Source: Hyphomicrobiales bacterium (GTDB taxonomy: Bacteria; Pseudomonadota; Alphaproteobacteria; Rhizobiales; MH13). From it: a stretch of DNA of 64,000 bases. Made by a program: the position numbers and the translations under genes. The stretch spans positions 744,001 through 808,000 of the forward strand of contig JAEPOK010000001.1 in assembly GCA_017642935.1 (NCBI GenBank), written 5' to 3'. Positions 40,062 to 58,979 of this stretch are shown here, piece by piece; the first letter of the stretch is position 1, and every line of letters starts with the position of its first letter. The notes beneath the pieces are model-generated. The model had not been told where the DNA came from. It made no database searches and saw nothing but the letters and a program-made list of their open reading frames with translations.

Positions 40062-41582
40062 ATGGCCAAAGCAACGACACCCTTGGTGCGCCTTTCCGGC
40101 ACGTCGAAATTCTACGGTCCGACGGCGGCGCTGACCGATGTGGATTTTGACTGCTATGCTGGCGAAATTCACGCCATCTTGGGCGAAAACGGTGCTGGCA
40201 AATCCACGCTCATGAAGCTGATTGCCGGCGTGATCGAGCCGAGCGAAGGGTCGATCTTTGTCGATGGCAAGGAGCAGAACCTGTCGTCACCGCGCGTTGC
40301 GATGGACCTCGGCCTCATCTGCATGTTTCAGGAACTCTCGCTGGTGCCGGACTTAACCGTTCGCGACAATCTATTGCTCGGCGCGCCTGGCAGCGGGCTT
40401 GGCCGATTGAAGTCTGACGGTTTGCAGCGCGCTCGCACCATTCTTGATGAGATTGACGGTGCTTCCATCGCTTTCAACGCCCTTGTTGCCGATCTGACAT
40501 TGGCCGAACGCCAGCAGGTTGAGTTCGCCAAGGCGCTCAGCCGTTCACCGCGCTTGTTGATCCTCGATGAGGCGACGTCGGCCCTCAACGCATCGGTCGT
40601 TGATAAGGTCTTTGCGCTCGTTCGCAAGGAACGTGACAACGGGACAGGGGTTCTCTTCATTTCGCATCGTTTCCACGAGATTGAAGCGCTTGCTGACACC
40701 ATATCTGTGTTTCGCAATGGCAAGCACATCGATACGTTTGCCAATGGCGCCTACGACTATCCAGCGATCATCGACAAGATGGTTGGACAGTCGTTCGATG
40801 AACTGTTCCCACCCAAACCCGAGCCTGACCCGCACGCGCAAGAAGTGCTTCGGTTGGAGAATTTCGGGTGGGGCGATGTGCTGCGCGATGTCTCCTTTTG
40901 CCTGCGTGCGGGCCAGATCACCGGATTGGGTGGGCTGGACGGTCAGGGCCAGATGCTGGTGCTTCAGGGTCTGTTTGGTCTGCTGAAGCAAACTGATGGC
41001 GCCTTGACCATGGACGGCAAACCTCTTGCCCTTGGTTCGCCCAAAGACGCGAAACAACCAGATACGGGCATCGCCTTGGTACCCGAAGACCGAAAGACCG
41101 AGGGCCTGATCCTCGCCCAGTCGATCCGCCAGAACATGGAGTTGGCTGCGACCGACCGAACGGGCCATGACGCCCCCAGCCCAGAGATCTTTCAAGAATT
41201 CATCGAAGCGCTTGAACTGAAATGCCGCAGCCTGGATCAACCGGTTGAAGATCTTTCCGGTGGCAACCAGCAGAAGGTGGCGCTGATCAAATGGCTGGTG
41301 CTTTCGCCCAAATGCTTGCTGTTGGCCGACCCAACGCGCGGCATTGATGTGAAAACCAAGACACAGATTTACGCGCTGCTGCGCAAGTTGGCCGAGGATG
41401 GCGTGGCGGTTCTGCTGCTCAGCACCGATTATGAAGAGCTGATCCACCTCTGCGACGAGGTGCATATTTTCTATGCTGGTCAGGTAGTGAAGCGTCTATC
41501 CGGTGACGATTTGACCGCTGAAAACATCATTGCGGCCTCGCTCAATCTTGGGCTGACGGAGACCATGGAGGATGCGGCCTAA
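40062..41582 (+). CDS. Sugar ABC transporter ATP-binding protein, RbsA/MglA-type
   Basis: Duplicated cytoplasmic ATPase of 506 residues, the standard length. First domain: Walker A GENGAGKS, LTLAERQ signature region, Walker B LLILDEATSALN. Second: degenerate GLDGQGQ in place of Walker A, signature LSGGNQQK, Walker B LLLADPTRGID, in which the usual catalytic DE pair reads DP. The receptor is encoded 119 bases upstream across the terminator; permeases follow with 1-base spacing. Confidence 0.93.
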   Translation: MAKATTPLVRLSGTSKFYGPTAALTDVDFDCYAGEIHAILGENGAGKSTLMKLIAGVIEPSEGSIFVDGKEQNLSSPRVAMDLGLICMFQELSLVPDLTVRDNLLLGAPGSGLGRLKSDGLQRARTILDEIDGASIAFNALVADLTLAERQQVEFAKALSRSPRLLILDEATSALNASVVDKVFALVRKERDNGTGVLFISHRFHEIEALADTISVFRNGKHIDTFANGAYDYPAIIDKMVGQSFDELFPPKPEPDPHAQEVLRLENFGWGDVLRDVSFCLRAGQITGLGGLDGQGQMLVLQGLFGLLKQTDGALTMDGKPLALGSPKDAKQPDTGIALVPEDRKTEGLILAQSIRQNMELAATDRTGHDAPSPEIFQEFIEALELKCRSLDQPVEDLSGGNQQKVALIKWLVLSPKCLLLADPTRGIDVKTKTQIYALLRKLAEDGVAVLLLSTDYEELIHLCDEVHIFYAGQVVKRLSGDDLTAENIIAASLNLGLTETMEDAA

Positions 41583-41583
41583 G

Positions 41584-42549
41584 ATGCGTCAGTTCCTTCT
41601 CTCCAATCGGCGCGAATTGATCGCATTCTCGATCTTGATGATCGCGTTGATCGCCTATCTCGCCACGCACCCGCGCGGACCATCAACCTATGTGATGACC
41701 ATCTGGGCCAACCAGTGCTTGATTTTGGCCTTGGCGGCGATTGCTCAGTTTTTCGTTGTTCTGGTTCGCGGCATCGATTTGTCCGTGGGCGCGATGATGG
41801 CGCTGACCAACACGGTTGCCTCCTATGTGTTGGCCGGTACAGGGCTCAGCCTGTTCGGTGGCATGTTGCTTGTGCTGGCTGTCGGCACTGCATGCGGCGT
41901 GATCAACGGGTTGATCGTCGTTTATGGGCGCATTCAGCCAATCATCGTCACGCTGGCCACGGCATCGATCTATGTCGGCATCGCGCTGCTGCTCCGTCCG
42001 ACGCCAGGTGGAAGTGTCAACTTCGACCTGGCAGATGCGATGACGCTGGACGTTCTCGGCGTCCCCACCGCGCTTGTGATTTTGGCAGTGATCATCGGCG
42101 CCTTCTGGCTGCCGCTGCGCCGCAGTGGTCTCGGTCTGTCGATCTATGCCTTGGGGTCGTCGGAGACGGCGGCCTACCAGTCGGGTATCCCGATCAACAC
42201 GGTGCGCATTGCAGCTTTTGCGTTGGGCGGTCTTTTTGCCGGTTTGGCTGGCACATATTTCAGCTATGTCACCACCACCGGTGATGCTGGCATCTCTGCC
42301 AACTTCACGCTCAATTCCATCGCTGCCGTTGTGCTCGGTGGTGTGGCGCTGAGCGGCGGTGTCGGCAGCTTGGTCGGGGCGGTGATCGGCGCATTCATCT
42401 TAGAAACTATCGCGTTTCTGATGTTCTTCTCTGGCCTGCCGCCTTTGGCTCAACCCTTTGTGGAGGGGCTGGTGCTCGCCACAGCCATTGCCGTTGGCAG
42501 CCTCACGATCTTGCGCCAACGCAACCGTTTGGAGGTTTTTCGGCGATGA
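41584..42549 (+). CDS. Sugar ABC transporter permease, RbsC-type (first)
   Basis: Inner-membrane permease of 321 residues, BPD_transp_2 family, about 8-10 membrane spans. Contains VRGIDLSVGAMMALTN and FTLNSIAAVVLGGVALSGG. ATG 41584 is preferred over 41572 since GGAGG touches the earlier ATG but is 12 bases from this one; either is possible. It pairs with the next permease. Confidence 0.91.
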   Translation: MRQFLLSNRRELIAFSILMIALIAYLATHPRGPSTYVMTIWANQCLILALAAIAQFFVVLVRGIDLSVGAMMALTNTVASYVLAGTGLSLFGGMLLVLAVGTACGVINGLIVVYGRIQPIIVTLATASIYVGIALLLRPTPGGSVNFDLADAMTLDVLGVPTALVILAVIIGAFWLPLRRSGLGLSIYALGSSETAAYQSGIPINTVRIAAFALGGLFAGLAGTYFSYVTTTGDAGISANFTLNSIAAVVLGGVALSGGVGSLVGAVIGAFILETIAFLMFFSGLPPLAQPFVEGLVLATAIAVGSLTILRQRNRLEVFRR

Positions 42550-43511
42550 CAACGCTTTCCCTCAAACGACCAAACTTCGATCTTGATGCCGCCATCCCGT
42601 TTCTGGCTACGGCAGCGATCATCATCATTGGCGCGTTCTTTGTGCCGCGCTTTTTAAGCCTGGACTATTTGTTGCAGCAGCTGCAGGTGGCCTCGTTTCT
42701 CGGCGTCCTGGCGCTGGGCGCAACCGTGGTCATCTTGCTCGGCCATATCGACCTGTCGGTGCCGTGGGTTCTCGGTGGCGCAGCAATCATCTCGACGGCT
42801 CTGGTTGGCACGGACAGTGCCATGTTGGGTGCATTGGCTGTGCCTGCCGCGCTGCTGTTCGGCGTGCTGGTTGGCATCATCAATGGCGTGGGCGTTGCCG
42901 TCTTTCGCATACCTTCCATGGTTTGGACGCTGGCGGTGAACTCCATGCTGCTCGGTGTTGCCGTGCTCAACACCGGCGGGTTCAGCCCACGCGGCGTTGC
43001 GTCTCCGCTGATGATTGAAGCGGCGACGGGCACGGTTGCGGGCATACCGTTTGCCTTTCTCCTCTGGATGGCCATCGCGTTGATCATCGGGCTTTTCTTC
43101 TCGCGCACAGGCTTTGGCCGCTACCTCTCCTCCATCGGCTACAATGAAAAAGCGACGTTCCTGTCGGGTGTTTCGACACCCAGCGTGATCTTTGCCGCGT
43201 TCATGATCGCTGGTGCGTGCTCCGCTTTGGGCGGGGTGCTCTTGGCCGGCTATGCCAACCAAGCCTACCAATCGATGGGCGACCCGTTCCTACTTCCCAC
43301 TATCGCAGCAGTGGTGATCGGCGGCACGTCCATCCTGGGTGGTCGTGGATCATTGGTCGGCACCATTGGCGGTGTTCTCTTCATCACCATTCTTACCTCG
43401 ATCCTCTCCGTCTTTCAGATCTCTGAGGCGTGGCGGAACATCATTTTCGGAAGCATCATCATCATCATGCTGCTGTTCCAGACCCTTCGCAGAAAAGGAA
43501 CGCGCGCATGA
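42546..43511 (+). CDS. Sugar ABC transporter permease, RbsC-type (second)
   Basis: Second permease of the same family, 321 residues, with GHIDLSVPWVLGGAAI and LLPTIAAVVIGGTSILGG segments. The presence of two different permeases makes this a heterodimeric channel, unlike the single-permease importer at 11.7 kb. ATGA overlap with the previous gene and with the SMP-30 gene indicates coupling. Confidence 0.92.
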   Translation: MTTLSLKRPNFDLDAAIPFLATAAIIIIGAFFVPRFLSLDYLLQQLQVASFLGVLALGATVVILLGHIDLSVPWVLGGAAIISTALVGTDSAMLGALAVPAALLFGVLVGIINGVGVAVFRIPSMVWTLAVNSMLLGVAVLNTGGFSPRGVASPLMIEAATGTVAGIPFAFLLWMAIALIIGLFFSRTGFGRYLSSIGYNEKATFLSGVSTPSVIFAAFMIAGACSALGGVLLAGYANQAYQSMGDPFLLPTIAAVVIGGTSILGGRGSLVGTIGGVLFITILTSILSVFQISEAWRNIIFGSIIIIMLLFQTLRRKGTRA

Positions 43512-44455
43512 GTGTGGCCTATGAAACGGTGGATCCGCGTTTTGAGAGCTTTGTCGATATCACCGCTCGTCCTGAAGTGATTGCGGAGGGTTTTACGTGG
43601 ACCGAGGGCCCGGTTTGGCTGAACGATGGGCTCTATTTCAATGACATCCCCTACAAAAAGATGCTGCGCTGGACCGAGGCGGCTGGTGTTCGTGTGGCAC
43701 TTGAAAACAGCGAGTTTGCCAACGGCAACACGCTGGATTTGGATGGCAAGATGGTCTCCTGCGAGCATGGCGGTCGCCGCGTTGTTCGTCGCGAGGTGCC
43801 CGAGGAGCTTGCCAGTGTTGAGGTGGTTGCCAGCCACTTTGCCGAAAAACCTCTGAATTCGCCCAATGATGTTGTGGTGCGCTCGGACGGCTCTGTGTGG
43901 TTCACCGATCCGCCCTATGGCATCAACAGCGACGTCGAGGGCTATCCGGCTGAAAGCGAGCAGGACGGGTGCTTTGTCTATTGCGTGATGCCTGACGGGC
44001 AGATGCGCGCGGTCGCTACGGATTTTGACAAGCCCAATGGCCTGGCTTTCTCGCCGGACGAAAAACGCCTCTACATCGCCGATTCCGGGGCGATTAAAGG
44101 CGCGAGCTTTCCGGGCATCGATTACGATCTGCCGCACCATATTCGGGTGTTTGATGTCGCTGGCACAACGCTTTCTGGCGGCGACGTCTTTGCCGAAACC
44201 CACCCCGGCGTGCCTGATGGGCTTCGGGTTGACCATGAGGGCTATGTCTGGACATCGGCGATGGACGGCATCCGCTGCCTGGATCATGACGGTGCCGTGA
44301 TCGGCAAGATCGTGCTGCCCGCGGCAACCTCCAACCTCTGCTTTGGCGGGTCGAGCGGCACCGACATGTTCATCACATCATCGGACAAGGTGTACCGGGT
44401 CCGGACCACAAGGCGCGACGCCGTGACCGTGGCGCGAGGGGGGTCCGCCTCGTGA
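43508..44455 (+). CDS. SMP-30/gluconolactonase-family lactonase
   Basis: Six-bladed propeller lactonase of 315 residues. Metal-site residues are visible: Glu in FTWTEGPVW, Asn in NSPNDVVV, and Asp in FSPDEKRLYIADSG. Family members hydrolyse aldonolactones. ATG 43508 overlaps the permease stop; an upstream His-rich extension is only out-of-frame permease sequence. Its place before ltnD/otnKCI suggests it opens a threono- or erythronolactone. Confidence 0.9.
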   Translation: MSVAYETVDPRFESFVDITARPEVIAEGFTWTEGPVWLNDGLYFNDIPYKKMLRWTEAAGVRVALENSEFANGNTLDLDGKMVSCEHGGRRVVRREVPEELASVEVVASHFAEKPLNSPNDVVVRSDGSVWFTDPPYGINSDVEGYPAESEQDGCFVYCVMPDGQMRAVATDFDKPNGLAFSPDEKRLYIADSGAIKGASFPGIDYDLPHHIRVFDVAGTTLSGGDVFAETHPGVPDGLRVDHEGYVWTSAMDGIRCLDHDGAVIGKIVLPAATSNLCFGGSSGTDMFITSSDKVYRVRTTRRDAVTVARGGSAS

Positions 44456-45375
44456 CCGGTTCCAATGACAATGGCATCACCACCGCGGTAATTGGCCTTG
44501 GCTCGATGGGCTGGGGTGCGGCAATGTCGCTGGTGCGCGCCGGAATACCGACGCTTGGCGTTGATATCCGCGAAGACGTGCTTGCTCGGTTCACGCAGTT
44601 TGGCGGTCAATCCTCCTCCACTCCGGCACAGGCTGCAAGCAGCGTCGACATTGTGTTCGTCTTCGTGGTCAATGAAGCGCAGGCACGCCAAGTGCTTTTC
44701 GGCGAGAATGGCGCTGCCGGCGCCGCGCGGCCCGGCACCGTTTTCGTGTTGTGCGTGACGATGCCGCCCAGTTCGGCTGAAGCGATCGCCAAGGAACTCA
44801 TCGAGCACGAGATGTTGGTGATTGACGCGCCGGTCTCTGGTGGGTCGATCAAAGCCGAGGCCGGTGAAATGACCATGATGGCAGCCGGATCGGACGCTGC
44901 CTTTACCAAGGCTGCTTCCGCAATGGATGTCATTGCCGGCAAAGTTTTCCGCCTTGGCGATGCGCCGGGTGCCGGCAGTCGGGTGAAGATGATCAACCAG
45001 TTGCTCGCCGGTGTGCACATCGCGGCCGCAGCCGAAGCCATGAGCCTTGGCGCGAGTATCGGCGTGGACTTGGAAACGCTTTACGATGTGATCCGGCAAA
45101 GCGCAGGCAATTCATGGATGTTTGAAAATCGCGGTGCCCATATCGTGGCCGGTGACTACACCCCGCATTCGGCGGTTGATATTTTCGTCAAAGACCTCGG
45201 TATCGTCGCCGCCGAAGCCGGAACCCAGACCTTCCCAACTCCCATGACCCAAGCCGCCCTTGACCTGTTCAAGGAAGCCAGCCGTGCCGGGATGGGCGGC
45301 GAAGACGACGCCGCCCTTGCCAAACTTTTGGCGCGCAAAGGCAATGTCACGCTACCGGGCATGGAGGACGTATGA
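44452..45375 (+). CDS. ltnD: L-threonate dehydrogenase LtnD-like
   Basis: Beta-hydroxyacid dehydrogenase of 307 residues: Rossmann motif IGLGSMGWGAAMSL, substrate motif DAPVSGG, catalytic Lys in RVKMINQLLAG. In characterised loci this enzyme oxidises L-threonate at C2 to 2-oxo-tetronate. GTG start overlaps the lactonase stop. The identification rests on family and on the adjoining otnKCI genes, since other family members share these motifs. Confidence 0.85.
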   Translation: MTGSNDNGITTAVIGLGSMGWGAAMSLVRAGIPTLGVDIREDVLARFTQFGGQSSSTPAQAASSVDIVFVFVVNEAQARQVLFGENGAAGAARPGTVFVLCVTMPPSSAEAIAKELIEHEMLVIDAPVSGGSIKAEAGEMTMMAAGSDAAFTKAASAMDVIAGKVFRLGDAPGAGSRVKMINQLLAGVHIAAAAEAMSLGASIGVDLETLYDVIRQSAGNSWMFENRGAHIVAGDYTPHSAVDIFVKDLGIVAAEAGTQTFPTPMTQAALDLFKEASRAGMGGEDDAALAKLLARKGNVTLPGMEDV

Positions 45376-46640
45376 GCACGCTTCTTGGTTGCATCGCCGA
45401 TGATTTTACTGGGGCAACCGATCTTGCGGGGATGTTGGCGCGCAGTGGGGCACCGGTCAGCCTGCGCATTGGCGTTCCGGACGAGCCGCCGGCGCAAACG
45501 GCGAGCTTTGAGGTCATTGCCCTAAAAAGTCGCACCGCACCTGTCGAAGAGGCGGTCGATGAGTGCCGGCGGGCGCTGGCTTGGCTGAAGAAGGCGGGCG
45601 CTGAGCACTTCTTCTGGAAATACTGCTCGACCTTCGATTCCACGCCGGAGGGCAATATCGGTCCGGTTGCCGAAGCCTTGATGGCAGACCTTGGAACCGA
45701 CCAAACCATCTATTGTCCGGCCTTTCCGGAAAATGGTCGTTCGATCTTCATGGGCAATCTGTTTGTCGGTCAGCAGCCTTTGGCGGAAAGCCCGATGAAA
45801 GACCATCCGCTAACGCCCATGCGCGATAGCAATTTGATGCGGCTCCTGGAACCGCAGGTCAGTAAGTCTGTGGGTTTGGTGGACCGGCTGACAGTCGCCA
45901 AGGGCCCGGAAGCCATCCGTCGAGCGCTTGATGCTCTGAAGGGGGAGGGCGTTGCCCATGTGGTGATCGACGCCGTGGCGGATGAAGACCTGAGCCTCAT
46001 CGCGCAGGCTTGCCACACCATGCCGCTTTTGACCGGTGGCAGCGCTTTGGCGATGCCCTTACCTGCGCTGTATGCGGCGCAAGGCGCGGACGATGTGACT
46101 GGTGTTTCTGGTGAAAAACCGCACGTCGACCCGCGTGCCATCGTTCTTTCCGGCAGTTGTTCTGCCATGACACGCAAGCAAGTCGCCGACTATGCGGCGC
46201 AAGCACCTTCTTATCATCTCGATCCGCGGGTCCTTGCGAATGATGGACCGAACCAGGCACTGGCTTGGCTCGCTGCTCAGGGCAATGAAAAAGCACCGCT
46301 GATTTACGCGTCGGCTGCACCTGAAGATGTTCGCGCAGCGCAAGATGCCTTGGGTGTTGAGCGGGCTGGTGAGCTGGTCGAAGACGCTTTGGCGACTTTG
46401 GCGGTTGCAGCGCGTGAGTGGGGCGTTCGTCGATTTGTTGTCGCCGGCGGCGAGACATCCGGCGCCGTAACTAAAGCGCTGGGCGTGACACGGCTCGACA
46501 TCGGCGTGGAAATCGCGCCAGGCGTGCCTTGGACTTATAGCCAGAGCGCTGGCGTGCCCATCGCCTTGACCTTGAAATCGGGCAATTTCGGTTCTGAAAC
46601 CTTTTTCAGCCACGCCCTTGATCTGTTGGAGACAGCATGA
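45372..46640 (+). CDS. otnK: 3-oxo-tetronate 4-kinase OtnK (DUF1537 family)
   Basis: Four-carbon acid sugar kinase of 422 residues. The N-terminal substrate domain starts LLGCIADDFTGATDLAGML and the C-terminal ATP domain has VLSGSCSAMTRKQV and FVVAGGETSGAVTKALGV. OtnK phosphorylates 3-oxo-tetronate at O4. ATGA overlap with ltnD and with otnC. DUF1537 also includes kinases of other acid sugars, but the otnC/otnI neighbours make OtnK most likely. Confidence 0.9.
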   Translation: MSTLLGCIADDFTGATDLAGMLARSGAPVSLRIGVPDEPPAQTASFEVIALKSRTAPVEEAVDECRRALAWLKKAGAEHFFWKYCSTFDSTPEGNIGPVAEALMADLGTDQTIYCPAFPENGRSIFMGNLFVGQQPLAESPMKDHPLTPMRDSNLMRLLEPQVSKSVGLVDRLTVAKGPEAIRRALDALKGEGVAHVVIDAVADEDLSLIAQACHTMPLLTGGSALAMPLPALYAAQGADDVTGVSGEKPHVDPRAIVLSGSCSAMTRKQVADYAAQAPSYHLDPRVLANDGPNQALAWLAAQGNEKAPLIYASAAPEDVRAAQDALGVERAGELVEDALATLAVAAREWGVRRFVVAGGETSGAVTKALGVTRLDIGVEIAPGVPWTYSQSAGVPIALTLKSGNFGSETFFSHALDLLETA

Positions 46641-47284
46641 GCGACGCAAAACTGCGCGAGCACATGTGCCTGCTCGCCAAATCCATGTTTGATCGCGGGC
46701 TGACCGGGGGCAGCACCGGTAACATTTCCGCGCGTACCGGCGACGGCGGATTACTGGTTTCGCCCACAGGCACAAGCTTTGGCCGCCTTGATCCAGGCCG
46801 GCTCAGTCGGTTCGACGCGCAAGGTCAGTTCGTTGACGGTGACCCGCCAACCAAAGAAATGCCATTGCACACGGCGTTTTACGATACACGCAGCACCGCT
46901 GGTGCGGTCGTCCACCTGCATTCCTGCCATTCGGTGGCCTGGTCGCTGATGCCGGAGGCCGATGAGGACAATTTCCTGCCGCCGCTCACGCCCTACGCCA
47001 TCATGAAGCTGGGCAAAGTGAAGCTGCTGCCCTTTTTTCTGCCGGGCGACCCGGCGATGGGCGAGGCGGTTCGCGGCCTTGCTGGCAAACGGTCGGCCGT
47101 CATGCTGGCCAATCATGGACCGGTGGTTGCCGGCAAAGATGTCGAAGCAGCCTGCAACGCCATCGAAGAGCTTGAAGAAACGGCGCGGCTGGCCGTGCTG
47201 ATGCGAGGCTTTGAGGCGCGCACGCTAACGCCGGCCCAGATCGATGCCATTGTGACAAAGTTTGACGTGGAGTGGGGCGCGTGA
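46637..47284 (+). CDS. otnC: 3-oxo-tetronate 4-phosphate decarboxylase OtnC (class II aldolase fold)
   Basis: Class II aldolase/adducin-family protein of 215 residues. GGSTGNISAR near the N-terminus, the metal His pair in VHLHSCHSVAW and a third in ANHGPVVAG are present. OtnC decarboxylates 3-oxo-tetronate 4-phosphate to dihydroxyacetone phosphate and CO2, feeding lower glycolysis. It overlaps otnK and otnI. Confidence 0.9.
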   Translation: MSDAKLREHMCLLAKSMFDRGLTGGSTGNISARTGDGGLLVSPTGTSFGRLDPGRLSRFDAQGQFVDGDPPTKEMPLHTAFYDTRSTAGAVVHLHSCHSVAWSLMPEADEDNFLPPLTPYAIMKLGKVKLLPFFLPGDPAMGEAVRGLAGKRSAVMLANHGPVVAGKDVEAACNAIEELEETARLAVLMRGFEARTLTPAQIDAIVTKFDVEWGA

Positions 47285-48045
47285 GGTTCTCGGCTAACCT
47301 TGGATTTTTGTGGACTGAGCTTTCTCTTCCCGATGCCGTTCGCGCCGCCAAACGCGCAGGCTTTGATGCGGTCGAGTGTCATTGGCCGTATGACACGCCA
47401 GCGGACGAGGTAGCGTTAGCGCTTGAAGAAACCGGCATGGCGATGCTTGGACTCAACACCGCGCGCGGCGATGTGGCAGCGGGCGAGAATGGTCTTGCCG
47501 CCTTGCCGGGACGTGAAAGCGATGCGCGGGCGGCCATTGATCAAGCCATCGACTATGCGCACGCGGTTGGTGCGCAGAATGTTCATGTCATGGCGGGTTT
47601 TGCTTCAGGCGAGGCCGCGCACAAAAGCTTTATTGAGGCGCTGCGCTATGCCGGCGCGCGGGCCGCACCGCACGGTATCGGCATTCTGATTGAGCCGCTC
47701 AACCGTTACGATGCTCCGGGGTACTTTTTGCAAACCACCGGGCAGGCCGTCGCGATTTTGGATGAGGTTGCCTCGGATAGCGTGCGCCTGATGTTCGACT
47801 GCTACCATGTGCAATTGATGGAAGGTGACCTTTCGAACAGGCTGATGGCGCTGTTGCCGCGCATCGGCCATGTCCAATTTGCCTCGGTGCCTGATCGCTG
47901 CGCACCCGACCAGGGCGAGGTGGACTATGCCCATATCTTCGCCCTGCTTGACGATTTTGGTTACGCCAAACCCTTGGGCGCGGAATACAAGCCGCACGGT
48001 TCAACCGACGACACGCTTGGCTGGTTGGCAAAGCTAAGGACCTAG
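47281..48045 (+). CDS. otnI: 2-oxo-tetronate isomerase OtnI (hydroxypyruvate-isomerase family)
   Basis: TIM-barrel isomerase of 254 residues. Metal/catalytic residues are visible in IEPLNRYDAPGYFL, MFDCYHVQLMEGD and GAEYKPHG. OtnI converts 2-oxo- to 3-oxo-tetronate, the step between LtnD or DenD and OtnK. GTG 47281 overlaps the otnC stop (GTGA); GTG 47272 is a possible alternative. Last gene of the importer/pathway operon. Confidence 0.9.
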   Translation: MRFSANLGFLWTELSLPDAVRAAKRAGFDAVECHWPYDTPADEVALALEETGMAMLGLNTARGDVAAGENGLAALPGRESDARAAIDQAIDYAHAVGAQNVHVMAGFASGEAAHKSFIEALRYAGARAAPHGIGILIEPLNRYDAPGYFLQTTGQAVAILDEVASDSVRLMFDCYHVQLMEGDLSNRLMALLPRIGHVQFASVPDRCAPDQGEVDYAHIFALLDDFGYAKPLGAEYKPHGSTDDTLGWLAKLRT

Positions 48046-48173: not shown

Positions 48174-50108
48174 TCATCCAAGGTCGGCAGCAATTGCGGC
48201 GTCGAGTGCCGAAGCACAGGCCGTGTTGGTCTCACCGGAAAGCGAGCGGATGCCCGCGTCGGCCAGGATGTCGCTCATGGCGGTGAGTTCGCGATTCACG
48301 CCGCGGTTGACGATAGCGACAACCCGGTCGCCAAGCGCCAAACAGGCATCGTTTTGGGTCGGCGCAGCCGCCGGTGCGGGGGCTGGTTGCGTCGCGCTCG
48401 CCGATCCCCAGCCTACGCCATCATCAGGAATCGCGTTGGCTGCGATCAATTGCGCCATCACTTGCGCGCATACCTGCTGCGAGGCACTGGCCACATTGGT
48501 TATGCCATTGGCCTGAAGTGTGCTGGTAACAGCGCGCCGCGCATCAGGTGCACCGCCACGCAAGATTGGCCGGATGGCACGCGCCAATGCCTCGCAAGCA
48601 AGGGGCCGGCCTTCCGGCACAGGGTTGGCGGTCGCGTTGGATTGGGCAATTCTCTGCGCCAATGCTCGAACCTGTTCCGGCGAGCCCATGCCTTCCATGG
48701 CAAGCAGCTCAAGCAGCGCCAGGCACTCCCCTTCGGTTGCGGAGAACACGTCGGACATCGGTACCGAGGCCATGCTGCTGCCGAAGATCGAAGAAACCGT
48801 GCGGTCGTTCACCGCTTCCACGGCCCTATCAATCGCCAAAACCTCGCGGCACGCATTACCCAATCCCGGCGATGGTGCAGGCGTCGGAGAGGGGGGCGTC
48901 CCGTTCTGTGTGCCGATTCCAGCCTGCAAGGCTACCGATGGCCCGTCGATGATCCCTTCCATCTCGAGCAGATCGAGGAGGCGACCACACTGCTCTTCAT
49001 TGGCCGCGAAAAGATCCATGATGCCGACCTCATCGATCAGTTGGCCAAACAGGCCGCTCAGACGGCGATCATTGGCCTGCTCAATGGCGACGGCAATCTC
49101 ATCGACAGCCGAACAATTCGCGCTGGCATTGCGAACAGCGCCCGCGTTTGGCGACTGACCACTGCCGCCAGATGCCAGCAGGCCTTGGAGGGGTGGCGAT
49201 GCGGCTATCAGATCGAGCGCCTGCTGGCATTTGTCCGGGGTCTGCGCGCCGCCAAAGGCCAAACCAGCCACCACATAGATGCCGCGTAATTCCTGGACGC
49301 TGTCGGTGCTGCCCATGGCATTTATGCGAGCGCTCATCGCTTCCAGTTGCGCGCAGCTGTCGGCAGATGCCGCTCCGGGCGGCGCAGGTGGAGGATTGTT
49401 TGGGGTGCCTTGAACACCACTTTGCTGAACGCCCGAGGACCCACCGACGGGGCGAAGCTGCAACTCCAAAAAGAACTCCGCCATCGGGCTGGTGCCATCA
49501 AGGACGAGCATTGGCGTTGGTGTGGTGAGGTCGCGCAGGGTGACGGCGACATTGGCCGGAATACCTGCCCACTCACCGAACGATCCGGTCCAAACGCCGC
49601 CTGGGCCGCGTTGCATCGTCGGTTGGCTAGGAAAGATCGCCGCTGGCATGGACAGACGAGCGGTGGAACCATCGATTGGGGTCAGGCTAACCGTACCGCC
49701 AGGATCAACCGGCGTGGGCTGGGTTTGCCCCATCATGGTGACCGTGCCGCTGCCACCGATCACCTCGAATGTCTGCACTGCACCGCCTGATTGCTGGCCG
49801 GTTGCTCCAGCCGGTGGTTGCACCGGACTGCCCGTGAGGTGCCGCATCTCTATCCAGCCATTGAGACCCTGGTAGACGATCACACACCAATTGCCCTCAC
49901 ACTGGTTGGTCACCGTGATGTCGCACTGGCCAACGCCAATGCCGCCAAGCACGGCGCTTTGTGGGTTGGGCTGGTCAAAGACGGGCAGTGATGATCCGTT
50001 GGGCGCGCTGCCAACACAGGTGTTGGGGTCGGCGTGCGACGGCGATGAGGTGAGCGCCACATGCGCCGCCAAAGCCACCGCACCCGCAACAACAGATTTC
50101 CAGCTCAT
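48174..50108 (-). CDS. Exported SH3-like protein with five Cys-x41-Cys repeats
   Basis: Protein of 644 residues from ATG 50108. A Sec signal peptide (about 1-26) is followed by a Cys-containing bacterial SH3-like domain (about 31-92, ending GWIEMRHL), a beta-rich middle (about 110-220) and a Pro/Gly linker. Then come five repeats whose paired Cys are each separated by exactly 41 residues: 252/294, 332/374, 420/462, 505/547 and 589/631. Repeats are predicted helical and share forms like VNDRTVSSIFG and CLALLELLAMEG. The regular Cys pairs suggest periplasmic disulfides. I do not recognise the repeat family. It follows the VWA gene by 43 bases. Confidence 0.83.
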   Translation of the reverse strand: MSWKSVVAGAVALAAHVALTSSPSHADPNTCVGSAPNGSSLPVFDQPNPQSAVLGGIGVGQCDITVTNQCEGNWCVIVYQGLNGWIEMRHLTGSPVQPPAGATGQQSGGAVQTFEVIGGSGTVTMMGQTQPTPVDPGGTVSLTPIDGSTARLSMPAAIFPSQPTMQRGPGGVWTGSFGEWAGIPANVAVTLRDLTTPTPMLVLDGTSPMAEFFLELQLRPVGGSSGVQQSGVQGTPNNPPPAPPGAASADSCAQLEAMSARINAMGSTDSVQELRGIYVVAGLAFGGAQTPDKCQQALDLIAASPPLQGLLASGGSGQSPNAGAVRNASANCSAVDEIAVAIEQANDRRLSGLFGQLIDEVGIMDLFAANEEQCGRLLDLLEMEGIIDGPSVALQAGIGTQNGTPPSPTPAPSPGLGNACREVLAIDRAVEAVNDRTVSSIFGSSMASVPMSDVFSATEGECLALLELLAMEGMGSPEQVRALAQRIAQSNATANPVPEGRPLACEALARAIRPILRGGAPDARRAVTSTLQANGITNVASASQQVCAQVMAQLIAANAIPDDGVGWGSASATQPAPAPAAAPTQNDACLALGDRVVAIVNRGVNRELTAMSDILADAGIRSLSGETNTACASALDAAIAADLG

Positions 50109-50151: not shown

Positions 50152-51651
50152 CTACGGTGCGTCTGGCATGGTCGCTTCGATGATCCGATCATCGCCAGCC
50201 GCCAGTTCAAACACCGTTTCGACCGAGCGGCGTGGACCATCGTCCCAAGCTTCAAGGCGCGCGGTATAGCTGCCAGGCAGAAGGAAATAGGTATCGTTGC
50301 CAATCTTGCCTGCAACGACCTCACTTTGATCCGTCGGTCCACGCAGCACTTGGTGGCGCAGCTCGAACCCCGTCAGTTCACTGCCATCTGTGTTGAAGAC
50401 CCGGAAACCGACGCGCGCGGTCGAAGCGATCACCTCCTGCTCAGTCACATCGCCGGCCGAGACGTCGAGCGTCACGGTTCCAGGCGACATGCTTTCAAGG
50501 CGCGTGATGACGAGCGCGGCTTCGTAGCGCCCAGCTGGAACGATTTCCCGCGCATTGCGGGCGTACACGGTGAACGAGCGATCCGTTTCAAGATTACGGA
50601 TGGTCCAACCGAAATCTGTGTTGGAGAGCCCAAACCCGTCGTTGAGCATGACCGCATAGAGATCGAGCGTCCCTGCACCAAAAACCAAATCAACGGCCGT
50701 TTGTTCGGTCGCAGTGAGCGTTATCTCCTCGCTTACCTGCAGGCCGCGATTCGTACTGGCCGTTAGGCGGTATCGGCCTGGCTCAATGAAACGCTCAAAA
50801 CTTGGCACGGCAGCGATGAAGGGAACCGAAGCCGGATCAATCTGAGGGTCCAGCGGTTCCAAATCCCACTCCACACGAATGGGGTCTTGAGTGGTCAATG
50901 GCTCGCTGGCCGCCTCCATTCGCACGGTGACGAACAGGTTTTGCTCAACCGGCTCCAACGCAGGTACTGGCGGCGCTGGTGGCTGGGGCGGCACAAAGGC
51001 CACGGTTTGCGTGAGCGCTTCGCCCAGCGCGTCAGCATCACTGGCTTGGAAATAGCTACCGCCGGTGTTCTCAGCCAGACACGCGACCTGTTGGCCTTCT
51101 TCTTCTGTCAACCCGAACCCGATGACATGGGTGGTGAAATCTATCCCAACGCTCTCCAGTTCATTGGCCAGGGCACACGGGTCGGCTTCGCAGGTTTCCA
51201 GGCCATCGGTGATCAGAATGATGGTGGCGCGTTCTTCGGTGTATCGCAGGTCCAATGCCGCGCGGCGTACCGCTTCGGACAGCGGTGTTTTCCCGCGTGG
51301 ATTCAGCGAGTTGACGGCAGCGGAGATTGAGCCTGCCGTTGTCGTCACAGGGCCAGTTGGCACAAGCATCTCAATGTCGTTGCAATCGCCACGGCGATTG
51401 TGGCCGTAGGCCATCAATCCCAGCTCCATCGTGGCCGGAAAGGTTGGCAGCACCCGCGCCAACGTCTCGCGCGCCGTGACAATCTTGTTGATCCCATCGA
51501 TCTGGCCCCACATCGATCCGGAGCCATCAAAAACCAGGATCGCACGCGGCAGATCGCTCTGCTGCGCGTTCACAGGGAGGGTGCAAAGGGCCAGAAAACC
51601 AAGGCTTACCGCACACAGGCGTTTGAAGAATCCAGTCAATGTTTGCCTCAT
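50152..51651 (-). CDS. Secreted von Willebrand factor A domain protein
   Basis: Exported protein of about 499 residues (ATG 51651; 51669 also possible). After a signal peptide ending in VNAQ it has a vWA domain with a complete MIDAS: DGSGSMWG, Thr in GKTPLSEA and Asp in ITDGLETC. Extra Cys (GDCND, TCEADPC) may form disulfides. A Pro-rich linker near residues 225-240 is followed by beta-rich, carboxypeptidase-regulatory-like segments. vWA MIDAS domains bind protein partners through a metal ion, so the repeat protein encoded next is a candidate partner. Confidence 0.88.
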   Translation of the reverse strand: MRQTLTGFFKRLCAVSLGFLALCTLPVNAQQSDLPRAILVFDGSGSMWGQIDGINKIVTARETLARVLPTFPATMELGLMAYGHNRRGDCNDIEMLVPTGPVTTTAGSISAAVNSLNPRGKTPLSEAVRRAALDLRYTEERATIILITDGLETCEADPCALANELESVGIDFTTHVIGFGLTEEEGQQVACLAENTGGSYFQASDADALGEALTQTVAFVPPQPPAPPVPALEPVEQNLFVTVRMEAASEPLTTQDPIRVEWDLEPLDPQIDPASVPFIAAVPSFERFIEPGRYRLTASTNRGLQVSEEITLTATEQTAVDLVFGAGTLDLYAVMLNDGFGLSNTDFGWTIRNLETDRSFTVYARNAREIVPAGRYEAALVITRLESMSPGTVTLDVSAGDVTEQEVIASTARVGFRVFNTDGSELTGFELRHQVLRGPTDQSEVVAGKIGNDTYFLLPGSYTARLEAWDDGPRRSVETVFELAAGDDRIIEATMPDAP

Positions 51652-51750
51652 GAGGATTGGTTTGCGCATGGTTTGAACCGCGCTGCTGTCGCTCAGATAG
51701 TGATCGAATAGATTGGCAGGCTGTGACGGCGCACACACAAGGTTGCTATC

Positions 51751-52257
51751 TCACCAGTCTTGCGCACACGGAGCGAAGACGCCGTCTACCGCGCCCTCCA
51801 CTTCGTCGCGGCTGGCGTTTTCAACGAAGCTGGGCAGGTTCATCGCCAGGTCGTTGCGCAAAAGATGGATGGGATTGCGCGGACACGACGCTTCCTGGCG
51901 GATCGCCGTTCCATCGGCGAATGTCACAACCAAAATGTCACGCCAGTCGTCGTCACAGCTGTCTGGAGTCATGCCATCCATAGCGGCAAGAGGCTGTTCT
52001 GCGGCAGCCCAGAACCTGGCGAAATAGCCCGCTTCGCTCCAGCGCGTGATGCGTGAGTTGGGATTATCAGAATAGGGGCTATCCACACGAACCGAGCTGT
52101 CGTCGGCGTGATGGATCATGGCCGTCATGCCATCGGCTTCACTTCCAGCGGCCAGGCAAATGCGGACTGGCTCACTGGCACTCGCGTTGCAGGCCATCAG
52201 CGCCAAGGCAATGCCCAGACCGAGAGTCGCTTTGGAAGGTGGTGTCATGCGCATCAT
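51751..52257 (-). CDS. Small exported Cys-containing protein of unknown function
   Basis: About 168 residues with an N-terminal hydrophobic segment ending LALMACNASAS, compatible with a Sec signal or a loose lipoprotein box. The mature part has further Cys (ICLAAG, SCDDDWRD, SCPRN, APCAQDW), suggesting periplasmic disulfides. I recognise no family. It lies between a LuxR-type regulator gene and the vWA gene on the same strand, so probably in one operon. The start is uncertain (52257, 52254 or 52248). Confidence 0.7.
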   Translation of the reverse strand: MMRMTPPSKATLGLGIALALMACNASASEPVRICLAAGSEADGMTAMIHHADDSSVRVDSPYSDNPNSRITRWSEAGYFARFWAAAEQPLAAMDGMTPDSCDDDWRDILVVTFADGTAIRQEASCPRNPIHLLRNDLAMNLPSFVENASRDEVEGAVDGVFAPCAQDW

Positions 52258-54315: not shown

Positions 54316-56205
54316 ATGGGCGATCTTGAGACCCCAACCGGCAATGGCTTGGCAAGCGCCAACGGCCTGACAAGCGCAAGCGGCAAAGCGAACGCTGAGA
54401 TCGTCGAGTTTTGCGCCAGATTTGCCAATGACAAGCATCGAACCTTGGACATTCTGCTGGCCGTCCAGGATCACTTCCGCTGGATCTCCCCGGAGGCGAT
54501 GGAAACGATCGCGGCCCAAACCGGTCAAAGCCGCATCCAGGTCGAGGGTGTGGCGAGTTTCTACCATTTCCTGTCTCTGGAGCCGAAAGGCGCGATTACC
54601 ATTCGGCTGTGCGACGACATTGTTGATCGCTATGCCGGATTGGCTGATGCTGTGACTGCCTTCGAGCAGGAACTTGGCATCGCCGTCGGCGAAACCTCGA
54701 CGGACGGACGCTTCTCGCTTGAGTACACCCCCTGCATTGGCATGTGCGATCAAGCGCCGGCTGCGATGATCAACGATGTGATTGTCACGCGCCTGACCGT
54801 TGAGAAGGCGCGCAGTATCGCCGCCGCGCTCAAAAACGGCTCCAAGCCCGAAGACTTGGTGAGCCCGCACTTCGAAGCCCTTAGCCCCTATGAGCGGGCC
54901 TCGCGGACCGTCGACAACAACATCCGTCACGCCGGAGAGGCCTTGCTGGGACCTGTGCCGACGGACAAGGGGCTGGAAAAAGCCGTCGTGTTGCGTCCTG
55001 AGCAGATCATTGCGTCACTGGAAACCAGCGGGCTTCGCGGTTGCGGTGGTGCGGGTTTCACGACGGGCACCAAATGGCGCGCCGCAGCGACGGAAACCGA
55101 GCCGCGAAAGTTCGTGTTTTGCAACGCCGATGAGGGCGAGCCCGGCACCTTCAAGGATCGAGTTCTTCTAACCGAGCGCCCTGATCTGGTGGTTGAGGGC
55201 ATGACCATTGCCGCCCGCGCGATCGGCGCCAAGGAAGGTCTGATCTACTTGCGCGGTGAGTACATCTATTTGCGCGACCATCTGGAGACGATCCTTGCCA
55301 AGCGCCGCGAGCGCGGTGTTTTGGGCACCAACGTTTTTGGCAAGGCCGGCTTCGATTTCGATATCCGCATCCAGATGGGGGCAGGGGCCTATGTTTGCGG
55401 CGAAGAGGGCGCGCTGATCAGCTCCTGCGAAGGCCTACCCGGCGAACCAAAAACCCGTCCGCCCTATCCGGTCAGTCGTGGCTATCTCGGCTATCCGACC
55501 GTGGTGAACAATGTCGAGACGCTGTGCCACGCAGCGCGCATCCTTGATCAGGGCCCGCAATGGTTTCAATCCATCGGCACTGAGGGCAGCAATGGCACAA
55601 AACTGTTCAGTGTCTGTGGTGATTGCCGCAACCCCGGCATTTACGAGTTGCCCTATGGGATCAGTGTTCGCGATCTGCTGACACTGGCCGGTGGAACCGA
55701 TGCCGCTGCCGTGTTGGTCGGCGGACCTTCTGGAACCATGGTCGCGCGTGACAGCTTTGACCGATTGCTCAGCTTTGATGATCTGGCCACGGCCGGCGCT
55801 GTCATCGTCTTCTCAGGCGAACGCAACGTTCTTGAGATCGTCGACTATTATCTCGGCTTCTTCATTCATGAGAGCTGCGGCTATTGCACGCCGTGCCGCG
55901 TCGGCAACGTCTTTTTGCAAAAGGCGATTCAGAAATTCCGCAAAGGCAATGCCGACAGCTCTGACGTTGCCTATCTGCGGGATCTTTCCTCGACGATTGT
56001 TGAGACCAGTCGCTGTGGTTTGGGCATGACATCGCCGAATCCGATCCTCTCGACTTTGCAAAACTTTCCCCTGGTCTATTCGGCTATCACCAAGGAAAAC
56101 GAGGAGGGGATGAAGGCGACATTCGACATACAAGATGCGATCAGTGAGGCGCGTTCCATCGCCAAACGACGGTCCTACATCTTCGACAAGGACTTCACCC
56201 AATGA
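54316..56205 (+). CDS. hoxF: NAD-reducing [NiFe] hydrogenase diaphorase subunit HoxF
   Basis: Diaphorase subunit of 629 residues that binds NAD and FMN. A NuoE-like domain (about 30-180) is fused to a NuoF-like domain (about 215-610), as in soluble group 3d hydrogenases. The NuoE-type cluster motif keeps C99, C140 and C144, but position 104 is Asp where NuoE has Cys. The FMN/NAD loop reads RGCGGAGF, with Cys 243 in place of the usual Arg. The 4Fe-4S site is intact (ESCGYCTPC and SRCGLG). It overlaps hoxU by 4 bases. Confidence 0.93.
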   Translation: MGDLETPTGNGLASANGLTSASGKANAEIVEFCARFANDKHRTLDILLAVQDHFRWISPEAMETIAAQTGQSRIQVEGVASFYHFLSLEPKGAITIRLCDDIVDRYAGLADAVTAFEQELGIAVGETSTDGRFSLEYTPCIGMCDQAPAAMINDVIVTRLTVEKARSIAAALKNGSKPEDLVSPHFEALSPYERASRTVDNNIRHAGEALLGPVPTDKGLEKAVVLRPEQIIASLETSGLRGCGGAGFTTGTKWRAAATETEPRKFVFCNADEGEPGTFKDRVLLTERPDLVVEGMTIAARAIGAKEGLIYLRGEYIYLRDHLETILAKRRERGVLGTNVFGKAGFDFDIRIQMGAGAYVCGEEGALISSCEGLPGEPKTRPPYPVSRGYLGYPTVVNNVETLCHAARILDQGPQWFQSIGTEGSNGTKLFSVCGDCRNPGIYELPYGISVRDLLTLAGGTDAAAVLVGGPSGTMVARDSFDRLLSFDDLATAGAVIVFSGERNVLEIVDYYLGFFIHESCGYCTPCRVGNVFLQKAIQKFRKGNADSSDVAYLRDLSSTIVETSRCGLGMTSPNPILSTLQNFPLVYSAITKENEEGMKATFDIQDAISEARSIAKRRSYIFDKDFTQ

Positions 56206-56951
56206 CGGAGGCTGCGTTCACCTTCTCGATCGACGGCGTTACGATTTCCGCCGAGCCCGATCAATCGATCATGGAAGCGGCTGACGCTGCGGGCATCTAC
56301 ATTCCACGTTTGTGCGATCATGAGGGCTTGCGCCACCAGGGCGGATGCCGAGTCTGTACGGTGAAGGCTGATGGCCACAGCGTTGCGGCCTGCACCCAGC
56401 CTGCCGCGCCTGACCTTGTGGTCGAAAATGAGAGCCAGCACATCAATGCGATGCGCCGTAATCTGGTGGAGATGCTGTTCCACGAGGGTAACCACCTTTG
56501 CCCGATCTGCGAGGCCAGCGGAAACTGCGAATTGCAGGCCATGGCGTATCGGCTGGGAATGACCACCGAGCCAACGAAGTTCCCTTATCTTGAGCCGTGC
56601 CGGGCGCTTGATGCCTCGCATCCCGATATCGCGCTCGACACCAATCGCTGCATCAGTTGCGGGCGCTGCATCCGGGCCTCGCAGGATGTCGATGGAAAGG
56701 GCATCTTCGGCTATGTCGGGCGCGGCATTCACCGGCGGGTGGCGGTCAATGGCCCGGACCTTGCCCATACCGACGCGGATGTCACTGATCACGCCATGTC
56801 GCCGGAGGTCTGCCCGGTCGGTTGCATCATTCGCAAGCGTGAAGGTTTTTCCACGCCGATTGGCGAGCGCGAATTCGATGATGGACTCATCGGCAGTGAG
56901 ATTGAGGCTCTTGCGCGCGAAGGCGAGAGTGCCGAGGACGCAGACCGATGA
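56202..56951 (+). CDS. hoxU: NAD-reducing hydrogenase electron-transfer subunit HoxU
   Basis: Iron-sulfur subunit of 249 residues, homologous to the N-terminus of NuoG. A ferredoxin-like 2Fe-2S domain (CDHEG, GGCRVC and AACTQ), a His-ligated 4Fe-4S motif (HLCPICEASGNCEL) and a further CISCGRC...CPVGC site are all visible. It carries electrons from HoxY to HoxF. Overlaps hoxF and hoxY. Confidence 0.93.
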   Translation: MTEAAFTFSIDGVTISAEPDQSIMEAADAAGIYIPRLCDHEGLRHQGGCRVCTVKADGHSVAACTQPAAPDLVVENESQHINAMRRNLVEMLFHEGNHLCPICEASGNCELQAMAYRLGMTTEPTKFPYLEPCRALDASHPDIALDTNRCISCGRCIRASQDVDGKGIFGYVGRGIHRRVAVNGPDLAHTDADVTDHAMSPEVCPVGCIIRKREGFSTPIGEREFDDGLIGSEIEALAREGESAEDADR

Positions 56952-57517
56952 GCGAACCAAGGAAAGCCCGTATCGCCACCGTCTCTTTGGCCGGTTGTTT
57001 CGGCTGCCATATGGCGATCCTGGATATCGATGAGCGTCTGATCGATCTGATGGAACAGGTCGAATTTGATCGCTCGCCACTGACCGATAAAAAACGTTTC
57101 ACGCAGCGTTGCGACATTGGCATTATCGAAGGCGGTTGTTGCAATGAGGAGAACGTCGAGGTCCTTCAGGATTTCCGGCGCAATTGCGACGTTTTGGTCG
57201 CGATAGGGCAGTGCGCGATCATGGGTGGTCTGCCGGCTATGCGCAACGCCATCATGCATTCCGACGATCCGCTGCGTGAATGTTTGGAAGAAGCCTATAT
57301 TTCAGGCCGGTATCTGCGGAACGCCACCCACAACGTTCCCAATGATCCGGCGCTGCCGCTTATCTTGGACAATGTCTACAGCTGCGCTGAAGTGGTTGAG
57401 ATCGATCATCAAATCCCCGGCTGCGCGCCCGAGGGCGACTTCATTTATAACACGCTGACCAAGCTGTTGGCCGGCAAGTTCCGTGGCTTTGAACGCGAAA
57501 CCATCCGGTTCGATTGA
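56948..57517 (+). CDS. hoxY: [NiFe] hydrogenase small subunit HoxY
   Basis: Small subunit of 189 residues. Ligands of the proximal 4Fe-4S cluster are in AGCFGCHM, IGQCAIMGG and IPGCAPEG. No Tat signal is present, as expected for a cytoplasmic enzyme. Together with HoxH it forms the hydrogenase module. ATGA overlap with hoxU; hoxH starts 19 bases later. Confidence 0.93.
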   Translation: MSEPRKARIATVSLAGCFGCHMAILDIDERLIDLMEQVEFDRSPLTDKKRFTQRCDIGIIEGGCCNEENVEVLQDFRRNCDVLVAIGQCAIMGGLPAMRNAIMHSDDPLRECLEEAYISGRYLRNATHNVPNDPALPLILDNVYSCAEVVEIDHQIPGCAPEGDFIYNTLTKLLAGKFRGFERETIRFD

Positions 57518-57536
57518 GACAAACAGGGTCCGTGCC

Positions 57537-58979
57537 ATGGCAGAGCCAAGACTGATCGAAATCTCACCGGTGACCCGCGTCGAAGGGCACGGCAAGGTGA
57601 CGATCCATATGGATCGCGACAATAAGGTCGATGAGGCGCGGCTGCACATCGTCGAATTTCGTGGTTTCGAGCGTTTCATTCGTGGTCGGCTCCTCTGGGA
57701 GGTGCCGGTCATCGTGCAGCGTTTGTGCGGCATATGCCCGGTCAGCCATCACCTGGCGGCCGCCAAGGCGATGGACCGGATCGTCGGTGTTGATGAACTA
57801 CCGCCGACAGCCGAGAAGATGCGCCGGCTCATGCACTATGGGCAGGTGATGCAAAGCCATGTGCTGCATTTCTTTCACCTGTCAGCACCTGATTTGCTTT
57901 TCGGATTCAGCGCGCCGGCGCAGAAACGCAACATCTTCGAGGTGATCAAAGAAAAACCGGATCTTGCACGGCGTGCCGTCCTCATGCGCAAGTTTGGCCA
58001 GGAAATCATTGAGGCGACGGCGGGCAAAAAAATCCACGGGACGGGCGCTATCCCTGGCGGGATCAACCGGAACCTGCCTTTGGAGAAGCGCGATCACTTC
58101 CTGGCGCAGATCGACGAAATGGAAGGTTGGACGCAAGAGGCGTTGGCGCTCGCCCGCGACTATACGCTCGATCATGCCGACTTAGTTGGTACCTTCGGCG
58201 CTTTTCCATCGAGCCACATGTCGCTGGTGCGAGCTGAGGATGGCGCGTTGGACCTTTATCACGGTGTCCTTCGGGCCATTGATGCCAAGGGCGAGCCACT
58301 GATCGATGGGTTGGACTACCGTCAGTACCACACCATCCTCACGGAGGATGTGCGAAGCTGGTCCTACATGAAGTTTCCTTTTCTCAACGTGCTCGGCCCA
58401 CGAGAGGGATGGTACCGCGTCGGCCCGCTGTCGCGCATGAACACGGCGAGCTTCATCGACACGCCGCTGGCCAATGAAGCCCATCGCGAACTGCGTGCGG
58501 TTTCGGATGGATTGCCGAACAACACCACGCTGACAACCCATTGGGCGCGGATGATCGAGGTCCTGCATTGTGTCGAGAAAATCCGCGAACTTCTCAACGA
58601 TCCCGATCTGCAGGGCACGGATTTGGTGGCCAAAGGCGACCGGCGTCAGGAGGGCGTTGGGGTCATTGAAGCGCCGCGCGGCAACCTCATCCACCACTAT
58701 CAAGTCGATGAGAATGACCAGGTGACTTATTGCAATCTCATCGTCTCAACGACGCACAACAATGAGGGCATGAACCGGGCGGTGAAGGATGTCGCCGTCA
58801 GCCACCTGTCGGGGCACGACACGATCACCGAAGGCATGCTGAACCATATCGAGGTTGCCATCCGCGCCTATGATCCGTGCCTGTCCTGCGCCACACACGC
58901 GTTGGGGCAAATGCCACTGCAAGTCGAGCTTGTGGATGCCGATGGTGCGGTCATCGACAAGGCGATGACGCCTGCATGA
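57537..58979 (+). CDS. hoxH: [NiFe] hydrogenase large catalytic subunit HoxH
   Basis: Catalytic subunit of 480 residues. The NiFe site is formed by RLCGICPVSHH (C64, C67) and the C-terminal DPCLSCATH (C448, C451). A 26-residue tail follows His 454 and should be cut off by HoxW after nickel insertion. The motif forms match group 3d (bidirectional/NAD-linked) enzymes. ATG 57537 is used; the frame is open slightly further upstream. It overlaps hoxW. Confidence 0.94.
   Translation: MAEPRLIEISPVTRVEGHGKVTIHMDRDNKVDEARLHIVEFRGFERFIRGRLLWEVPVIVQRLCGICPVSHHLAAAKAMDRIVGVDELPPTAEKMRRLMHYGQVMQSHVLHFFHLSAPDLLFGFSAPAQKRNIFEVIKEKPDLARRAVLMRKFGQEIIEATAGKKIHGTGAIPGGINRNLPLEKRDHFLAQIDEMEGWTQEALALARDYTLDHADLVGTFGAFPSSHMSLVRAEDGALDLYHGVLRAIDAKGEPLIDGLDYRQYHTILTEDVRSWSYMKFPFLNVLGPREGWYRVGPLSRMNTASFIDTPLANEAHRELRAVSDGLPNNTTLTTHWARMIEVLHCVEKIRELLNDPDLQGTDLVAKGDRRQEGVGVIEAPRGNLIHHYQVDENDQVTYCNLIVSTTHNNEGMNRAVKDVAVSHLSGHDTITEGMLNHIEVAIRAYDPCLSCATHALGQMPLQVELVDADGAVIDKAMTPA

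Follow-up and report, generated by a model that had tools for sequence, protein, structure and literature searches.

A probably exported alphaproteobacterial protein with five predicted three-helix units, each bearing a regularly spaced cysteine pair

The window, the whole stretch of 64,000 nucleotides of a Hyphomicrobiales genome that we analysed, carries a gene for a 644-residue repeat protein on its minus strand (48174..50108, stop codon at 48174-48176), which is assigned from its open frame and from coding-type substitutions relative to a homologue in a second genome of the order, G027. A preliminary description of this gene had given the Cys positions correctly and had left out the strand. 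An SH3-like region and a predicted barrel follow the signal-like stretch with which the protein starts, and five units occupy the part from residue 250 onward. By eye, residues 1-26 (50031..50108, minus strand) form a probable signal peptide, in which a hydrophobic stretch is followed by S-H-A before D27. The SH3-like region comprises residues 29-93 (49830..50024, minus) and contains four Cys (31, 62, 70, and 75), and the predicted β-barrel domain covers residues 107-223 (49440..49790, minus), with AlphaFold2 strands within residues 112-220. Judged from its sequence, the 644-residue protein is probably an exported, multi-domain protein, probably located in the periplasm or at the surface.

The upstream neighbour, 43 bases away, encodes a VWA-domain protein (50152..51669, minus; Pfam VWA_2 and VWA over cut-off) and is possibly co-transcribed with the repeat gene. 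A small frame that looks exported by eye lies 81 bases before the VWA gene (51751-52254, minus) and has no Pfam match at E 0.1. Neither the VWA gene nor the frame before it was seen next to the relatives of the repeat gene in the stretches read from G027 and from a third genome, G261; we dropped the VWA operon as a clue to function because the arrangement is found in the window only. A promoter and terminator scan returned 0 and 4 sites, no excess over shuffled sequences. Elsewhere in the window, four consecutive plus-strand frames (54316-58979) have openings that we take to be reminiscent of an NAD-reducing [NiFe] hydrogenase set. Two presumably permease-like frames precede a run that we assume to be reminiscent of sugar-acid breakdown genes (41572-48045, plus), with resemblance by eye to a lactonase, a dehydrogenase, a kinase, an aldolase and an isomerase.

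The SH3 label of residues 29-93 rests partly on alignment to other proteins; the score of the window protein itself lies below cut-off. Against Pfam SH3_4 it reaches E 0.0012 (19 bits versus a cut-off of 24.1, residues 68-93 only), the gathering cut-off for SH3 is not attained, and the three relatives are without any Pfam match at E 0.1. Residues 29-93, approximately, align with stretches of many proteins of the order; the bacterial SH3 families SH3_3 and SH3_4 concern the N terminus of the window protein only and not the units. The aligned stretches L004 and L024 (opposite residues 13-92 and 45-137) exceed the SH3_3 cut-off and the aligned stretches L006, L007, and L009 match no family, such that SH3_3 is reached in 2 of the 5 stretches scanned (L013 was excluded, as it contains a stop codon). 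All four SH3-like Cys are kept in the three relatives, and the region has a pLDDT of about 30 in the full-length model. TagV, an SH3b lipoprotein of Serratia that serves a type VI secretion system, contains an SH3b domain proposed by its authors to bind peptidoglycan (PMC7614798). In common with TagV, the window protein comes from a Gram-negative bacterium, has an SH3-like part where TagV has SH3b, and would be an envelope protein; the excerpted account of TagV makes no mention of helical units such as those described here (PMC7614798).

The predicted domain at residues 107-223 looks like β-barrels in general. Comparison with PDB folds gave Z-scores up to 10.4 (designed barrels) and 10.0 (a Bacteroides protein), and Foldseek listed numerous lipocalin-2 chains with values of up to 0.99 in its probability column; their E values were 0.06 or higher, and no match reached 0.001. 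Any resemblance to lipocalin-like barrels would be one of fold, as no match by sequence was obtained. The barrel matches listed include TbpB, NHBA, and fHbp (Z 7.1 to 8.1), as might be expected if the protein were a cargo of Slam (type XI) secretion, with the barrel as export signal and the units as the exposed part. We regard this as highly improbable, since Z-scores of this size are mostly typical of common arrangements and are surpassed by those of designed barrels. A search for Pfam SlipAM found the family in 0 of 3 genomes, with the control detected in 0 of 14.

The remainder of the protein is organized around paired cysteines. All five units lie on the minus strand and were delimited by Cys spacing and AlphaFold2: unit 1 spans residues 250-303 (49200..49361, Cys252/Cys294), unit 2 residues 330-383 (48960..49121, Cys332/Cys374), unit 3 residues 418-474 (48687..48857, Cys420/Cys462), unit 4 residues 504-556 (48441..48599, Cys505/Cys547), and unit 5, which was also modelled alone, residues 585-640 (48189..48356, Cys589/Cys631). 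Ten Cys follow residue 240, and every one is a unit Cys. Our recount agrees with the preliminary description in finding exactly 41 residues between the two Cys of all five pairs, in linkers of unequal length (Cys-to-Cys 37, 45, 42, and 41 residues between successive units), and in strong sequence divergence between the repeats. Units 2 and 3 share 36% identity and the other nine pairs 13-23% (67-residue stretches); the sequences alone establish a clear likeness only between units 2 and 3, whose z is 6.9 as against 1.5 to 3.4 for the remaining nine pairs. The claim that the spacing is invariant holds for all five units of the window protein but not for its relatives, in which 6 of 9 units have 41 intervening residues, two have 42 and one has 40. 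Taken over the 14 units of four proteins from three genomes, the spacing is 41 in 11, 42 in two and 40 in one. All 14 units have two Cys 40-42 residues apart, the family itself having been defined from those units, and no column other than those of the two Cys is invariant in the 14-unit alignment. A chance origin of the spacing was rejected, since none of 200,000 random placements of ten Cys over residues 241-644 produced five pairs with the same gap; the null is a weak one, given that units arising as copies would have one spacing in any case. The equal gaps say little beyond the relatedness of the units.

An AlphaFold2 model of unit 5 alone, calculated from an alignment of 14 units from three genomes only, shows three helices (unit residues 4-19, 22-34, and 45-57; pLDDT 92.9, pTM 0.78). 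Its two Cys, at unit positions 6 and 48, each fall within the opening turn of a helix, helix 1 and helix 3, respectively. The full-length model, for which 4 sequences could be aligned, is of lower quality (mean pLDDT 59.6, pTM 0.28) and again contains three main helices in each of the five units, with an extra helix after units 1, 2, and 3 (residues 305-312, 389-395, and 477-494). Ten-residue blocks inside the units mostly have pLDDT values of 59-89, the lowest being those of unit 3 (59-75); the linkers at 314-328, 399-416, 487-501, and 568-586 fall below 50, as do residues 285-287 within unit 1. The conserved helical fold suggested in the preliminary description is thus borne out by the three helices per unit in the full-length model and by the confident model of unit 5 alone, and the C-terminal 400 residues are very probably a string of five three-helix units of about 55-60 residues each. 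The units are presumably independent of one another; the absence of packing between them in the full-length model is weak evidence, because only 4 sequences were available and the scores are poor.

For an exported protein, a bond between the two Cys of one unit is the simplest reading of sequence and models. All 28 Cys in the C-terminal parts of the four proteins are unit Cys (10, 8, 8, and 2), and the one-unit protein of G261, whose further Cys are the four of its SH3-like part and one in its signal-like stretch, offers no other C-terminal partner, which makes the within-unit bond the simplest. In an up-down-up bundle, helix 1 and helix 3 begin at the same end. The unit is most likely closed by a disulfide joining the starts of these two helices. 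A helical-face test placed the helix 3 Cys 10 degrees from the hydrophobic face and the helix 1 Cys 69 degrees off; the hydrophobic moment of helix 3 was no better than that of shuffled sequences (reached by 1392 of 5000). Alternatively, the second Cys of each unit could be bonded to the first Cys of the next, which would chain the units into a stiff rod. From one unit to the next, neighbouring Cys are separated by 37-45 residues, similar to the distance within a unit, but the between-unit distance varies, from 29 to 75 in the relatives, whereas the within-unit spacing is constant at 40-42. Chained bonds would moreover leave the first and last Cys unpaired, the model has low confidence in the linkers, and the one-unit G261 protein has a pair with 41 intervening residues yet no neighbouring unit. 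We therefore consider chaining very unlikely and retain the within-unit disulfide.

The units could not be matched to a named family in the preliminary description, and our searches gave the same outcome, with no significant match in Pfam, NCBIfam, PHROGs, or the PDB (by sequence or by fold). The query was the window protein in Pfam and NCBIfam, and the window protein together with its three relatives in PHROGs; Pfam was also queried with each unit. At E 1, the window protein matched SH3_4 alone in Pfam and nothing on the units, leaving repeat families of the TPR, Sel1, and HEAT class unmatched. When the 14 units were compared singly with Pfam at E 10, XdhC_CoxI (E 0.085) and Herpes_UL74 (E 0.17) were each hit by one unit, in a search in which the HMMER filters discard most matches above about E 0.1. 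Sub-threshold matches were to FliX in NCBIfam (residues 571-640, E 0.32, 11 bits versus 238) and to phrog_34894, which has no known function, in PHROGs (residues 562-585, mainly linker, E 0.027). A unit profile had no match among PDB sequences at E 10, and the window protein gave two N-terminal cadherin matches there (E 0.36 and 0.69).

Structural comparison likewise gave no significant match. Foldseek of the unit against the PDB gave a best E of 3.2, and a VIA fold comparison, which covered 9 chains only, a best Z of 4.9. The three-helix arrangement resembles 8qe9 chain 1F, DdrC (8u0g), and a CUE domain (9a14), with Z-scores of 4.9, 4.7, and 2.1, all within the common-arrangement range. At E 10, viral structures returned 58 matches, of which the best had E 0.63 and none reached 0.001. 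Among the best 50 of the 58, three-helix parts of uncharacterized phage proteins attain a TM-score of 0.78 by query length; a common arrangement is the likelier cause of this resemblance. We found no such unit described in the literature, as judged by titles and the starts of abstracts, and one may still be in print.

Three homologous proteins are present in two other genomes of the order, one with 4 units in G027 and two with 4 and 1 units in G261. When the protein was searched against a sample of 397 genomes from the order, 82 contained some match; most of the matches listed are confined to SH3-like residues, and those in G027 and G261 (two proteins) extend through the barrel into the units. 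Weak matches outside the SH3-like part in G056, G060, G094, and G254 (E 0.002-0.005) did not recur in either of two profile searches, made with the 14 units and with the barrel. The 14-unit profile detected 13 of the 397 genomes at E 0.01, three strongly and ten weakly. Each of the 14 units in the three strong genomes, from whose units the profile had been built, was recovered at E 1.4e-16 or better. We regard the ten weak matches (E 5e-4 to 0.008) as chance, the five that were read (L039, L040, L041, L042, and L044) being without the 41-residue spacing in the matched frame. The barrel profile at E 0.01 found 3 of the 397 genomes, exactly the three with units.

In a class sample, the 14-unit profile at E 0.001 matched 2 of 385 genomes, the window's own and one weakly (L061, in which the 41-residue spacing was not found in the matched frame), and in a phylum sample of 398 genomes it matched only the window's own; the order, class, and phylum samples overlap, and none is the whole group. 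The window's own family is represented by five genomes, of which the window's genome alone has a match (the other four are 95, 97, 78, and 58% complete). A wider scan of genome contigs yielded no relatives with a single protein and one match with two aligned proteins (L060, probably G027's own genome), and plasmids, phages, and viral contigs yielded none, in scans that detect a few short peptide patterns only. On sequence and model together, we take this to be a real, rare, and uncatalogued three-helix unit.

Copy number varies between the four proteins (5, 4, 4, and 1 units). Since no fork of the unit tree was starred, pairwise identities were used instead. By these, the units of the window protein (W) and of the G027 protein pair by position, W1 with unit 1 (55%), W2 with unit 2 (48%), W3 also with unit 2 (44%), W4 with unit 3 (34%), and W5 with unit 4 (46%). 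Identity between the same two proteins amounts to 71% in the SH3-like part and 38% in the barrel. In 6 of 7 unit pairs, third codon positions show the most change, the exception being W4 and G027 unit 3, where first positions exceed third positions (33, 23, and 29), and dN is lower than dS in all four pairs for which dS could be computed, the remaining three of the seven being saturated. These computations show selection on the sequence of the repeat protein. Across the 7 close unit pairs, identity in loop columns 35-44 ranges from 3/9 to 8/9.

Cell-wall-held binding modules on a string are our guess at the function, one that we put forward tentatively. In this picture, the protein would be anchored at the cell wall through its SH3-like part, with the barrel serving as a scaffold or as a pocket for a ligand. 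Each unit would be a binding head of its own, and the heads would vary with unit type, perhaps by way of the loop that joins helices 2 and 3. Alternatively, the units may be mere spacers setting the distance from the SH3-like and barrel parts to whatever lies beyond, which would fit their variable number, 1 to 5, and the 84 more distant unit pairs, which have on average 0.33 of core columns and 0.15 of other columns in common. The five same-position pairs of the window and G027 proteins, however, retain between 13 and 21 of 42 non-core residues, a weak argument against mere spacing because descent could suffice; position-wise conservation between these two proteins may indeed stem from common descent, without separate binding roles. 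We consider the spacer role unlikely.

A multi-headed inhibitor at the cell wall, directed for example against proteases or lysozymes and protected from cleavage by its disulfides, would be another use of such units. Inhibitors of this kind commonly carry small domains that are closed by disulfides and joined by flexible linkers, and the window's genome holds another SH3 protein with two Inhibitor_I36 stretches. No unit matches any inhibitor family, however, and besides the two Cys there is no column common to all 14 units, so that an inhibitory role also appears improbable. With binding modules as the leading guess, we consider it fairly probable, taking the statement as a whole, that this is an exported multi-domain protein of disulfide-tied three-helix units with a binding job.

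The fuller reading would be a new domain family, a disulfide-closed three-helix module copied one to five times on an SH3-like-plus-barrel envelope protein, with the copies having grown apart into position-specific binding heads. We hold it to be doubtful in this form; if true, it would represent a natural bacterial scaffold that binds several partners simultaneously. With this unit, the known modules of exported bacterial proteins would gain a small helical domain closed by cysteines. Natural examples with one, four, and five copies are available for comparison, and the unit is small enough for a quick solution by NMR or crystallography. Its rarity, with strong matches in 3 of the 397 sampled genomes of the order, limits its wider weight.

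SH3 parts recur in other genes of these genomes. The repeat gene is followed on the same strand by a gene that includes an SH3 part in G027 (L002:560-1150, minus) and at one of G261's two loci (L032:805-1617, minus). The G261 frame scores 29.7 bits against SH3_3, above cut-off, and the G027 frame 26.3 bits versus 27, just below; the two frames look similar to each other by eye. The true start of the G027 frame lies later, since as it stands this frame overlaps the repeat gene's end. Compared with the window's genome, the G027 gene has as its best match the SH3/I36 protein (24 residues, E 0.003). This SH3 protein, which has two Inhibitor_I36/crystallin stretches, is encoded on contig C2 of the window's genome (L062:856-1839, minus) and represents a second SH3-plus-repeat design there. 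In G027, a PG_binding_1 protein near the relative (L033:13321-14469, minus) contains an HExxH-type motif by eye.
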